Shown here piece by piece: positions 21,321 through 28,286 of a stretch of DNA of 64,000 nucleotides; within the stretch, counting starts at the first letter, position 1; the number at the start of each line of letters is the position of its first letter. The position numbers and the translations under genes are program-made. The DNA is from Synechococcus sp. WH 8020. Its GTDB lineage: Bacteria; Cyanobacteriota; Cyanobacteriia; PCC-6307; Cyanobiaceae. The notes below the pieces were generated by a model, which worked only from the letters and a program-made list of their open reading frames with translations, did no database searches and was not told where the DNA came from. The DNA lies in contig NZ_CP011941.1 of the NCBI RefSeq assembly GCF_001040845.1, positions 48,977 to 112,976 of the forward strand. The letters are read 5' to 3'.

Positions 21321-22481
21321 TTAACTGAGGGCAATCCAAGCAAAAAGCCCTTGAGAGGCTAAGAAGGTCGCTGGAAGGAAGATTTCCATGATTCTTTCGA
21401 GTGTTGGAACGCGTTCTGCGCCTTCTTTTGCAATTGTTTGTGAGATGTAATAAGCGATGAAGACTTCTGAAACCATAAACACGAATAGGAAGATTGTATA
21501 AGTATCGCCTAGGGTTAGATAGGGGACTCTTGGTACTGAGCTGGTGATAATGATTTGGTAAGCAAGAGTTGTAAATAGCAGTCCGGAAATAAATGCCAAT
21601 CTGTCCGCAAATGCCTCTAAGGGGATGGCCAGGAAAAAGATGCTTGTGAAGGTGAGGATCCCTAAGGGCAGGAATATCTTGTAAATAAAGTGGCCTGACC
21701 GCCTTGAGATTGTTATCGTCGCTGATAATCTTGAGAATTCATTGCTTCCTTGCTCGGGGTCGTCATGGTTGCGAATCACATACCCTAAATTTTTGATTTT
21801 CCATTCTGGAAGCTTGGAGTTTTTGCTTAGGCTTACGACATCTCCAAGTTCGACTAGCTTGAGAACAGTCTTGTCCCAGCTAAAGGATTGTACATATAAG
21901 TGCAGGAGTTGCTGGTCAAAAGGGAATTTTTCGAGTCTAAATTCTGAGCCAAGTCCTTCCTCAAAACGCGCTTTCCTTTCCACTGCTCCACTGCGATGCA
22001 GTGTGATGGTTTGAGTTTGGTAAAAGGCTTCGCTGACGCGATTTGTAAATTCAAGTTGAGGAACCCAATGGGATCCCATCCAGTCTTCTGCAGCGGAGTT
22101 GAACAGAACGAGTTTATCTTCATTTTCTGGGAGATCGCTGATGATGCGTGGATCGCACCATGTGGAAGTCAGTAATCCATCAAGCTGAAAATTATTGTGT
22201 GTATCGGAGATTGAAGGCAATTCATTGATGTGGATGCTGACTCCCACAGGAATGGGTTTGAGCTTTGAGATTGGTTGCGGTGGTGCTAATGGATGAGTGG
22301 GTAACAGCTCTTTCTCTGGGCACCCGTATTCGGAAATATTGAGCTGAGATAAATCTTTGATTCTGTTCGCTTGGCCAGGGATATATTCAACTGCGCTTGA
22401 GGGCGAATAATGGCCTCCTATCCATAGGCAGAAGGCTAGTAATGCTGCAAAAAATGTACCAATCTGCTTTCTTCGTGCCAC
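21321..22481 (-). CDS. Prokaryotic pentameric ligand-gated ion channel (Pro-loop/Cys-loop receptor family)
   Basis: A 386-residue homologue of GLIC/ELIC and animal Cys-loop receptors. After a signal peptide (to about residue 30) comes a beta-sandwich ligand domain: PVGVSIHINELPSI (78-91), the STWCDPR segment (106-112) and the signature Pro-loop FPFDQQ (186-191) without flanking Cys, as in bacterial members. Four membrane helices follow: M1 about 266-287, pore-lining M2 about 293-317, M3 about 323-346, M4 about 364-385. The M2-M3 linker VPRVPYLTLGDTY is typical. Ligand and ion selectivity cannot be read; M2 starts with FADRLAF rather than the Glu-rich ring of cation channels such as GLIC. Confidence 0.88.
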   Translation of the reverse strand: MARRKQIGTFFAALLAFCLWIGGHYSPSSAVEYIPGQANRIKDLSQLNISEYGCPEKELLPTHPLAPPQPISKLKPIPVGVSIHINELPSISDTHNNFQLDGLLTSTWCDPRIISDLPENEDKLVLFNSAAEDWMGSHWVPQLEFTNRVSEAFYQTQTITLHRSGAVERKARFEEGLGSEFRLEKFPFDQQLLHLYVQSFSWDKTVLKLVELGDVVSLSKNSKLPEWKIKNLGYVIRNHDDPEQGSNEFSRLSATITISRRSGHFIYKIFLPLGILTFTSIFFLAIPLEAFADRLAFISGLLFTTLAYQIIITSSVPRVPYLTLGDTYTIFLFVFMVSEVFIAYYISQTIAKEGAERVPTLERIMEIFLPATFLASQGLFAWIALS

Positions 22482-24649: not shown

Positions 24650-25795
24650 TTAACTTGGATAGTAGTAAAAAGCTGCTCCAAAAATTGCGAACATTCCCAA
24701 AAGGAGAACTCCTTCAAGCCAATTGGATTTGGCATCCATATTGACGAGATTCACAATTAAAACACTGAATATAAGTGCGATGACTTCAAATGCTGTGAAG
24801 TCAAGATTCATCGGCTGGCCGATAAGAGCTCCGATAATAATCAGTGCTGGGGCGATGAGTAGGGCAACGAGCAAGCTGGAACCCATTGCCAGCGAAATAG
24901 GAAGATCCATTTGATCTTTCCAGGCTCCTTTCACGGCGGGAACATACTCGGAGAAGCCTCCAATGATTGGAATGATGATGATTCCGGTAAACAATGCGCT
25001 GAAGCCTAATTGTTCTGTTGCAGGCTCTAAAAAATGAACAAAACTTTCGGACTGATAAGCGAGAAGTGATGTGCAAAGAATTAACTGGAGGATCCAGGGC
25101 AGTAGATTTATGCTTTTTTCTGCTTCTTTCGAAGACTCGGGTTCATCATTTTGAATGTGTTGGGGATCAAAGAGATGGCTGTGTGTTGCGAGAGAAAAGA
25201 TTAATGTTAAGAAGTAAATAACGATGAGAATCACTGCAACGGTCATTGATAAACCGTGAATTGCAATGGGATCGTCAATCCCTGATGTGCTGATGAGGGA
25301 CGCAGGTAGGGCCATCGCCATGACCGCTAATGTCATGGCCGCACCGTTGGTGCGAACCATTGTTTCCTGAAAACTTTGTTCGCTATATTTCAATCCTCCA
25401 ACAAGCATTGCCACTCCTGTAACAAGTAGAAGGTCCGAAAGAATTGCTCCTGTGATACTTGCTTTGACAACATCAATCAGGCCAAGTCTTAGGGCCGATA
25501 GGGCAATAATGAATTCCGCAAAATTCCCAAAAACGGCAGTGCAGATTGCTCCTATTGTTGGCCCACTATGCTCTGCAATTTCTTCAGTTGCATCACTTAG
25601 TAGCAGCGCAATTGGAATGATGCCTGTTGCGGAAACAATGAAACAAATGAGAGTGGGCCATTCCTGCATGGAGGCCAACTGTGTCAGCCCAAGCAAGGTG
25701 AGGGCTGGAATTGCTTTCCAACGCCCGGAGTGTATGAAGGAGGAGGTGAGGCTTTTAGGTATGGGATCGTCGGTTTGATTAGCATTTGAGTGCAT
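24650..25795 (-). CDS. CaCA-superfamily Ca2+/H+ antiporter
   Basis: A 381-residue inner-membrane exchanger with about 11 hydrophobic segments in two halves. The alpha-repeat signatures are visible: TAVFGNFAEFIIAL near residue 87 and IIGGFSEYVPAVKGAWKDQ near 278, each with the conserved acidic residue used for calcium binding. The second repeat reads SEYVPAV where typical CAX proteins have AEHxxA. Family knowledge supports proton-driven Ca2+ (or other divalent) extrusion. A hydrophilic acidic loop (about 208-225) separates the halves. It is 45 bases downstream of the binding-protein gene on the same strand, so it is probably co-transcribed with it. Confidence 0.85.
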   Translation of the reverse strand: MHSNANQTDDPIPKSLTSSFIHSGRWKAIPALTLLGLTQLASMQEWPTLICFIVSATGIIPIALLLSDATEEIAEHSGPTIGAICTAVFGNFAEFIIALSALRLGLIDVVKASITGAILSDLLLVTGVAMLVGGLKYSEQSFQETMVRTNGAAMTLAVMAMALPASLISTSGIDDPIAIHGLSMTVAVILIVIYFLTLIFSLATHSHLFDPQHIQNDEPESSKEAEKSINLLPWILQLILCTSLLAYQSESFVHFLEPATEQLGFSALFTGIIIIPIIGGFSEYVPAVKGAWKDQMDLPISLAMGSSLLVALLIAPALIIIGALIGQPMNLDFTAFEVIALIFSVLIVNLVNMDAKSNWLEGVLLLGMFAIFGAAFYYYPS

Positions 25796-25840
25796 GTATC
25801 GCTTGGAAGAATTGGGTTAAGGTTCTTGTTGGGATTAAAT

Positions 25841-27049
25841 TTATGGCTCCCATTGCTGTGCTCCAAAAAATGTGAGCTCAACGTAGTCGCTTGCCTGCTT
25901 ATTGTTGCTGGATAAGTCTAACTGAAATCCTCCTAAGTCTACTTTTTTGATCGACTTTAGGCTTTTGACGAGGCTTTCTTTTGTTAGTGGCCCTTGAACC
26001 TTCCTGATTCCTTCGGTGATTAATCGAGCAGCCATAAATCCTTCCAAGCTTGTGAAACCAAATCGGGCTGAAGAATTATTCACGCGCATGAGCCGTTGAT
26101 AGTCTGCGACCACTGGAATCCATCGGTCCCAGGGAAAGGGAACCACTTGGCTCACCCCAATGCCATTGGCAAGCCCTACAGGTAATGATTTTTCCAGGGC
26201 TCTGGTGCCAACAAAAGACACATTCATGATCTGAGCTTTGACATCCCTTTTGAGTAACTCCCTGCTTAACGCTGCCGAGCTGACGTACGTTGAGATGATG
26301 ATAATGGCGTTTGGTTCGCTGGATAACAACACTTGAAGTGCTGATTGGATTTTGGCAGAGTTTCTTTGAACGGTTGCGATCGCAACTGGCTTCAGACCAT
26401 GCTTTTTCAAGGCCGATTCTGCAGATTTCAGGCCATCTTTCCCAAAGGCATCATCCTGATAAATGATTGCTATTTTTTGTCGTGCGTTACGAACAAGGCT
26501 ATCAACAATTTTGTCTATTTCCATCTGATAGCTGGCTCTTAAGTTCACTACCATTTTTAATTTTTCATCGCGCAGGATTGATGCACCTGTCAGGGGGGCG
26601 ATGAGGGGAACTTTCCTTTCTTCAATGAATGGAAGTATTTCTTTCGTTGTGGGTGTGCCTACATAGCCAAAGAGAGCAAGAAGGTTCGGTTTTTCGAGCA
26701 GTGTTTTGGTATTGCTGATGGTCAGTTCAGGCTCATACTGGTCATCAAGGCTGATCAAACGTATTTTTTTCCCGTTGATTCCTCCCTGTCGATTCACCTC
26801 GTTAAACCATGCTTGGGCGCCGGCCTGATATTTTTTTCCTATTTGAGCCGAAGGTCCGCTCAGTGGTAAGGATTGGCCTAGGAGGATCGTATTCTTGCTA
26901 TCAGAGGTGATTTGAGTGTCTTTTTGTTGGGCTGATGTGGCAGCTATCGATAGACTAAGTCCTAATGTTATGAGGGTACTTCGACGAAGAATTGTTGCTA
27001 TCCGCTTAACTGGTAAAACGCTTTTGTGATTTGCTGCTCTTTTTTTCAT
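25841..27049 (-). CDS. Orphan type-I periplasmic binding protein (branched-chain amino acid type)
   Basis: A 402-residue exported protein of the LivJ-like family that includes the ligand domains of animal glutamate and GABA-B receptors. A long basic N-region and hydrophobic core precede cleavage near AATSA|QQ (about residue 40). The fold is seen in ILLGQSLPLSGPSAQIG, NEVNRQGGINGKKIRLI, VGTPTTKEILPFI, VPLIAPLTGAS and KIAIIYQDDAFGKDG. No ABC permease or ATPase genes are near, so it does not look like part of an importer. The ATG at 27049 shares its bases with the ATG of the divergent channel gene; an upstream Met at 27082 is the alternative. Ligand unknown; a small amino acid is the family expectation. 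Confidence 0.85.
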   Translation of the reverse strand: MKKRAANHKSVLPVKRIATILRRSTLITLGLSLSIAATSAQQKDTQITSDSKNTILLGQSLPLSGPSAQIGKKYQAGAQAWFNEVNRQGGINGKKIRLISLDDQYEPELTISNTKTLLEKPNLLALFGYVGTPTTKEILPFIEERKVPLIAPLTGASILRDEKLKMVVNLRASYQMEIDKIVDSLVRNARQKIAIIYQDDAFGKDGLKSAESALKKHGLKPVAIATVQRNSAKIQSALQVLLSSEPNAIIIISTYVSSAALSRELLKRDVKAQIMNVSFVGTRALEKSLPVGLANGIGVSQVVPFPWDRWIPVVADYQRLMRVNNSSARFGFTSLEGFMAARLITEGIRKVQGPLTKESLVKSLKSIKKVDLGGFQLDLSSNNKQASDYVELTFFGAQQWEP

Positions 27050-28286
27050 GACGAAGGTTCGAAGACGGAGAAAGTGGAACATCTTGGCGATCGCGTCAGT
27101 GGTTCTGGCAGCCTTGCTTTCCATTATTGGAGTAACTAGTCTAAATGTTGATCAAGTGCCAGGCCGTGATTCCCTGCGACTTTCTTCAGCTTCTCGGGCA
27201 TTAACCACATCCGTGGATCGCCTTCCTCGTGACGGTTGGAGTTCACAGAGAGGAGAGTCGTTAAGCGGAAGTGAAATTCAAGCTGACATTGAAGCACTCG
27301 ATGATGCGAAATACCATGTGAAGATTGGAGTGTATTCAAATAGTACCTACGATCTTGATCTAAGTATTCCTAGCTTCTCCTCCAATGGTTACGTGTGGAT
27401 GCGCTGGGAGCAGCCTCTTCAAGATTACTTAGAGGCCAATGATACGGATTTGCAAGAGCATATTTCATTGCTTAATGCGTTGTTGTCTGATGCGGAACCT
27501 GTGTTGAATCCTGTGCAGGATAAGCCAGCAGTCTTGTCTGATGGTACCTATTACCAGCTTTATACTTATGTTGGTCGATTTTATATTGATCGCGCAACCT
27601 TTAAGAAGTTCCCGTTCCTCACCATTAGTTTGCCGATCGCGATTGAAGCTGATGATGTGGCGGGAGGGCTTGGCTATACGAAGCTGCGTTTTGAGCCTGA
27701 TATTCGCAATAGTGGGATGGGCCTTTATGCAGGAACAGGAATTATTGGTTGGTTGAATCGCGGTTGGTCGATTGCTGAGTATCGCCATAATTATGCAACC
27801 AATTTTGGTCTTGGTGGGTTGGACCGGGATTACAGTCTCATTGTCTATGACATCACCTTCGGAACTTCGTCTTGGTCCTCTTTTTGGCGCTTGATGTTGC
27901 CTTTGTTGGTTGTGATGGTGATGGTACTTCTCGTCTTCAAAATCCGCCCTGATGAGCAAGATGCTCGAGCAGGAATTCCTGTCACCGTGTTGTTGACATT
28001 GGTGTTCCTGCAGCAGGTGTATCGAGGTGAACTCCCTGACCTTCCTTTCCTTACCTTTCTCGATCTGGTTTATGTGATCGCTTACGTCATCACATTGTTT
28101 GCATTTGTTTTGTTGGTTTGGATTGGACGCCGTTATGCGGATATGGAGAGCATGCCCCTTGGAGAGGCGCGCGATAACCTCTCCAAACGACTGGAACTTC
28201 TTGATGAGGTTTGGCCTCTTTCAATGGTGTTGTTTTGTTCTGTTGCTGTTGTGTCGGCCTGGGTCTTGATCCCTCCGGGCGCTTAA
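27048..28286 (+). CDS. Divergent pentameric ligand-gated ion channel-like membrane protein
   Basis: A 412-residue protein whose layout parallels the channel at 21321 although identity looks very low. There is an N-terminal hydrophobic segment (about 12-30), then an extracellular beta domain with VKIGVYSNSTYDLDLSIPSF (91-110) and VWMRW, the Pro-loop-like RATFKKFPFLTISLP (182-196), and DYSLIVYDITFGTSSWSSFW leading into M1 (about 280-298). Next come M2 (about 308-324), a linker ELPDLPFLTFLD that matches VPRVPYLTLGD of the other channel, M3 (about 339-359) and M4 (about 388-407). The FPF proline is kept; the following Asp is replaced. Assignment is from topology and these motifs; an unrelated four-helix sensor is possible. 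Confidence 0.65.
   Translation: MTKVRRRRKWNILAIASVVLAALLSIIGVTSLNVDQVPGRDSLRLSSASRALTTSVDRLPRDGWSSQRGESLSGSEIQADIEALDDAKYHVKIGVYSNSTYDLDLSIPSFSSNGYVWMRWEQPLQDYLEANDTDLQEHISLLNALLSDAEPVLNPVQDKPAVLSDGTYYQLYTYVGRFYIDRATFKKFPFLTISLPIAIEADDVAGGLGYTKLRFEPDIRNSGMGLYAGTGIIGWLNRGWSIAEYRHNYATNFGLGGLDRDYSLIVYDITFGTSSWSSFWRLMLPLLVVMVMVLLVFKIRPDEQDARAGIPVTVLLTLVFLQQVYRGELPDLPFLTFLDLVYVIAYVITLFAFVLLVWIGRRYADMESMPLGEARDNLSKRLELLDEVWPLSMVLFCSVAVVSAWVLIPPGA

Follow-up and report, generated by a model that had tools for sequence, protein, structure and literature searches.

Bacterial pentameric ligand-gated ion channels (pLGICs) have been associated with periplasmic sensors since 2004, when two arrangements were described. 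In the alpha-proteobacteria Magnetospirillum and Bradyrhizobium, the channel carries a type-I periplasmic binding protein (PBP) as an N-terminal fusion, and in certain operons a pLGIC gene is accompanied by a stand-alone type-II PBP (PBP-II) or a Cache protein; the cyanobacterial channels of that survey had a simple architecture (PMC549065). In DeCLIC, also a pLGIC, a further regulatory part lies in the periplasm at the N-terminal end. For most bacterial pLGICs the ligands and roles in nature are still to be found, and the N-terminal domains, where present, are little understood (PMC12664993). Here we analyse a stretch of 64,000 nucleotides (the window) from the complete 2.66-Mb genome of Synechococcus sp. 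WH 8020 (NZ_CP011941.1, positions 48,977 to 112,976 of the forward strand), in which a gene for a divergent pLGIC and a gene for an orphan type-I PBP lie head to head on opposite strands. Where relatives with the same channel are named, they are Synechococcus. We consider it probable, at roughly 0.7, that the two proteins make up a split receptor channel in which the PBP would dock on the pLGIC and alter its gating. Indirect support comes from the joint loss of the two genes and from two short motifs, from which we infer contact through two protein ends and an effect on gating.

The pair resembles the described fusions in that a type-I PBP is coupled at the N-terminal side of the channel, with the same polarity as the docking proposed below. 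The fusions, however, are covalent (PMC549065), whereas here separate genes lie on opposite strands, divergent or convergent, in a cyanobacterial family, and their products carry terminal motifs that track the partnership. With the operons the pair shares a separate periplasmic sensor gene adjoining a pLGIC gene, but here the sensor belongs to the type-I superfamily, the layout is non-operonic and the terminal motifs form a matched pair. DeCLIC differs in carrying its own fused, calcium-binding jelly-roll domain (PMC12664993) rather than a separate PBP. The fold and pore plan of our channel are common to GLIC, sTeLIC and ELIC, but identity to these is about 18%, and our channel adds an N-terminal hydrophobic helix and a 40-residue segment before the ectodomain. 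A preliminary description of the locus, made from the sequence, knew of no cyanobacterial system of this form. That statement holds in part. PBP-pLGIC fusions and operons have been known since 2004 (PMC549065), but we found no description of a cyanobacterial channel-PBP pair in the literature searched. By that literature, three things are new: that cyanobacteria have the type-I PBP as a protein of its own, that it is strictly conserved, and that the terminal motifs match. The idea of joining a PBP to a pLGIC is not.

The channel gene (27048..28286, plus strand) encodes a subunit of 412 residues consisting of an N-terminal hydrophobic helix, a pre-ectodomain segment, a beta ectodomain and four transmembrane helices. 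The PBP gene lies on the minus strand in an open reading frame (ORF) spanning 25841-27124. If translation starts at the internal ATG at 27049-27047, giving 402 residues (25841..27049), the palindrome CATG at 27047..27050 holds the start codons of both genes, overlapping and opposite, one on each strand. Across six genomes of this genus, to which the overlap of starts applies, the sequence at this site, TTTTCATGAC, does not vary. Given that start, the interlocked start codons of the preliminary description are real. Its gene places likewise agree with the ORF coordinates, as does the gap of exactly 45 bases between the PBP gene and that of an antiporter.

Sequence searches matched the channel weakly. 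Pfam Neur_chan_memb gave 18 bits (E=0.004), below its cut-off of 28.1, and the ligand-binding domain (LBD) model gave no match; profile LGIC_1 (E=1e-6) and GLIC among PDB sequences (E=6e-4) were also weak matches. Because a Pfam cut-off is an annotation threshold and no biological hallmark, we judged this divergent family by its fold and hallmarks. An AlphaFold2 model of the channel made with 37 relatives (pLDDT 88.6, pTM 0.81) predicts a beta ectodomain followed by helices at residues 275-298, 304-326, 337-368 and 373-407, the second of them being the pore helix M2 (27957..28025, plus strand). The top Foldseek match of the model is GLIC (E=7.9e-18, TM 0.79 over the target), and further top matches are sTeLIC, the glycine receptor and ELIC. 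In 38 of 38 sequences the Pro-loop proline is kept (P189), as are the proline of M1 (P285) and, in M2, the leucine at 9' (L316). By its model and its sequence features, the protein encoded at 27048 is a pLGIC, so that what had been called channel-like is confirmed at the level of predicted structure. An acidic residue, Asp or Glu, stands at -2' of M2 in 37 of the 38 channel relatives. An acidic ring at -2' points to cation selectivity, as in GLIC, and on this ground the pore is probably cation-selective. The parts that are extra to the pLGIC plan are the hydrophobic helix at residues 3-30 (27054..27137, plus strand), which may be a signal peptide or an extra membrane anchor, and the segment of about 40 residues (~33-73) that precedes the first ectodomain helix.

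The partner matches Pfam Peripla_BP_6 (E=1.4e-48, 166.8 bits against a cut-off of 31.7) and ANF_receptor (E=2.6e-12), in accordance with its earlier placement in the family of the ligand domains of metabotropic glutamate and GABA-B receptors. Its model has the two-lobe type-I fold, with Foldseek matches to 4KV7 and 3LOP (33% identity, TM 0.87-0.89 over the target); the alignment with 3LOP ends short of the C-terminal tail discussed below. The N-terminus reads as a probable Sec signal peptide without a lipobox cysteine (26930..27049, minus strand), ending in ATSA with cleavage inferred before the following QQ. The PBP has no transporter of its own. Dedicated permease and ATPase genes are missing, and the only branched-chain-type permeases in the whole genome are UrtB and UrtC, which adjoin their own UrtA and UrtD. 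We therefore ruled out a role as an ABC-transporter component, and the earlier remark that no ABC partners lie nearby extends to the entire genome. The preliminary description had further called the protein an amino-acid-type sensor. Our results do not support this, since the pocket is conserved yet unlike the amino-acid site of LivJ. At the positions of S79, T102, D121 and E226, which we take to be the LivJ contacts, the PBP has T132, G155, Y174 and S278, each invariant in 20 of 20; this comparison is best taken as a lead. Three of the four contacts are replaced and the fourth is changed from Ser to Thr, which argues against the LivJ mode only.

The association of the two genes was surveyed in 300 genomes of the family. 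The PBP is the divergent neighbour of 44 of the 49 close channels (group A), and every full-length PBP that is at least 46% identical adjoins a channel. This adjacency is far beyond chance. On the channel side the neighbouring genes define at least 9 different contexts, on the PBP side at least 10, and therefore the pair moves together. A channel branch about 40% identical (B1), basal to A and to a further branch, B2, in the channel tree, also keeps the pair, but tail to tail, that is, convergent. TrpB and HrcA, which adjoin the B1 pairs, were judged to be unrelated housekeeping neighbours. In several genomes of the genus murE and a class-V aminotransferase gene are directly adjacent, while in seven others the antiporter, PBP and channel genes sit between them. 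Two genomes, G024 and G027, retain the antiporter and a C-terminal channel stub of 20-29 residues, and the PBP is gone. The pair was therefore lost jointly, leaving the antiporter without it. Channel and PBP are thus a conserved unit, moving and lost together. Beside the intact PBP-less channels of G009, G019, G029 and G076 no decayed PBP was found, and next to the PBP-less channel of G062 lies what may be the remnant of a PBP, containing a stop codon (L081:8996-9121, E=5e-6) and convergent as in B1. Elsewhere in the class, the Peripla_BP_6 model found no PBP partner within 7 kb of a channel, and with the UrtA-like family model PBP partners were found only in this family. The same locus, with a channel 97% identical, also occurs on a contig labelled as a metagenome-assembled genome (MAG) of Phycisphaerae (L004), probably a mis-binned Synechococcus contig.

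Conservation within the two proteins follows the partnership. Residues 40-45 of the channel, RDSLRL (27165..27182, plus strand), are the proposed docking site and conform to R[DE]xLRL. This motif stands before the ectodomain in 48 of 48 paired channels, B1 included, and in none of 61 unpaired channels; one more channel with the motif is located at a contig end. The PBP-less B2 branch reads GDYLEL at this site. The 23 paired group-A channels compared have 141 invariant positions in common, 11 of them in residues 33-82. Two separate PBP-less lineages, one of G009, G019 and G029 and the other of G076, each depart at five of the 141, and four of the five are within residues 33-82 in both (hypergeometric p=1e-4 each). 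The remaining departure of each lineage, at G256 or D261, falls in the region of loop C. When paired channels were left out singly, they showed 0-3 departures, none within residues 40-52. Codon identity is 0.36 in the motif compared with 0.48 at invariant residues elsewhere. The motif codons are more varied, and the constraint is therefore on the protein and not on an embedded promoter. We rejected a promoter for the PBP gene as the cause of R[DE]xLRL conservation, as the codons vary and the motif is also present in convergent B1.

On the PBP, the proposed docking tail is GAQQWEP (residues 396-402; 25844..25864, minus strand), of the form G-x3-W-x-P, which is the exact end of 47 of 47 complete channel-adjacent PBPs. 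The nearest relatives that are not beside a channel end instead in [FY]-I-[HN] (8 of 8, counting one copy that has decayed). At the seven intact loci of this kind (L120-L126) the PBP adjoins a Bestrophin-like membrane protein (PF14023; 4 of 7 scanned), and at most of them a PstS-like binding protein then follows the Bestrophin-like gene. Channel-paired PBPs share 60 invariant positions. Just three of these are matched in none of the Bestrophin-linked PBPs, and they all lie in the last seven residues. Somewhat short of even odds, we would venture that this soluble type-I family supplies interchangeable sensors to two unrelated membrane families, with the C-terminus acting as an address (G-x3-W-x-P for pLGICs, [FY]-I-[HN] for Bestrophin-like proteins) and with R[DE]xLRL as the pLGIC receiver, decaying upon loss of the sensor.

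In the mechanism that we propose for the split receptor channel, the PBP would be exported to the periplasm as a soluble ligand-sensing subunit, unused for uptake. Its G-x3-W-x-P tail would dock near the channel N-terminus, at the R[DE]xLRL segment ahead of the ectodomain, and ligand binding with closure of the PBP would shift the opening of a plasma-membrane pore that is predicted to be homopentameric and is probably selective for cations. The two short motifs make this directly testable by mutation. A soluble sensor of this kind, with ends defined for docking, would also be a handle on the ligand, by screening of the PBP, on gating by an added protein subunit, and on the origin of fused receptors from parts that were once separate.

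A simpler role for the PBP was put forward in 2004 for bacterial pLGIC operons, that of a carrier (PMC549065). Here it would capture and concentrate the ligand near the membrane, and the ligand would then bind the ectodomain of the channel itself, without gating by the PBP. A soluble PBP without a lipid anchor could serve in this way, and the one altered loop C residue of the PBP-less lineages is in keeping with it. However, a carrier would have no need of a tail fixed to the last residue, or of a counterpart to it in a part of the channel other than the ectodomain, and the closest PBP relatives have a different fixed tail and mostly adjoin a different membrane protein. We find this role unlikely. 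It is also conceivable that adjacency reflects shared regulation only, as overlapping divergent starts would couple the expression of the two genes; the proteins would then act separately and the motifs would be independent family traits. This is highly improbable, because the convergent B1 pairs have no shared promoter and yet keep both motifs, R[DE]xLRL is gone whenever the PBP is gone, and synonymous sites within the channel motif are free. Several points do weigh against a split receptor channel. The channel genes of G009, G019, G029 and G076 are intact without a PBP, and therefore the channel can do something alone. The N-terminal segment may be the least constrained part of the protein and the first to decay under relaxed selection, although the exact PBP tail and its switch with the partner would stand against mere N-terminal decay. 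The counts are of related sequences, and independent losses of the PBP number only about three. Within the channel, residues 3-30 could be a retained membrane helix or a signal peptide, and cation selectivity stands on a single residue position.

The preliminary description had gone further and joined both proteins to the neighbouring antiporter in a Ca2+ module, with the PBP as sensor controlling the channel and the antiporter restoring Ca2+. The antiporter (24650..25795, minus strand), described there as a CaCA antiporter, is of CAX type, scoring 332 bits against the TIGR00378 calcium/proton exchanger model (cut-off 211). Within this genus it is confined to genomes in which the pair occupies, or once occupied, an insertion site between murE and the class-V aminotransferase gene, as a three-part module might lead one to expect. 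In related genomes, however, only the channel and PBP are kept together; the antiporter adjoins them in this genus alone, and channel-PBP pairs of other genera have no adjoining antiporter. It persists in G024 and G027 following the joint loss of the pair, while G009, G019 and G029, also members of the genus, have the channel and lack both antiporter and PBP. On synteny and the joint loss of the pair we rejected the three-gene module, which we regard as having very little chance of being correct, and the antiporter is probably a mere neighbour outside the unit. What stands of the proposed sensor-channel module is the orphan PBP as the conserved partner of the channel.

The window contains a second pLGIC gene near rpsD (21321..22481, minus strand), separated from the antiporter gene by murE. 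Its product is a clear pLGIC, as had been stated (Neur_chan_LBD, E=1.8e-14), but it belongs to a distinct, distant family, has no adjacent PBP partner and lies outside the channel-PBP unit. Another group of channels in the genus, C1, is followed on the same strand by an abutting or few-base overlapping gene for a UrtA-like PBP in nine of nine cases (L060:3846-6256, L108, L109, L110, L129 and L196-L199). These PBPs match Peripla_BP_5 and score about 445 bits against TIGR03407, below its cut-off of 492.75, and several have a lipobox-like cysteine near the N-terminus. Together with the fusions, this independent C1 pairing suggests that coupling of PBPs to pLGICs arose more than once. Around rpsD, murE and the aminotransferase gene, G004 carries three pLGICs (C1, A and the 21321 type) together with two PBPs, all within 12 kb (L060:3846-15731), which gives this region the look of a hot spot for channels of this sort. 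In six genomes of the family, a B2 pLGIC gene stands in a row of four with genes for a histidine decarboxylase, a weakly matching dCache sensor and an MFS transporter (L069, L086, L088, L089, L090:4816-10226 and L092). The decarboxylase of L090 scores 334.6 bits against PRK02769 (cut-off 305), and the dCache protein of the row has a possibly degenerate kinase-like end. The row may be a cassette for making histamine that includes a channel of its own.

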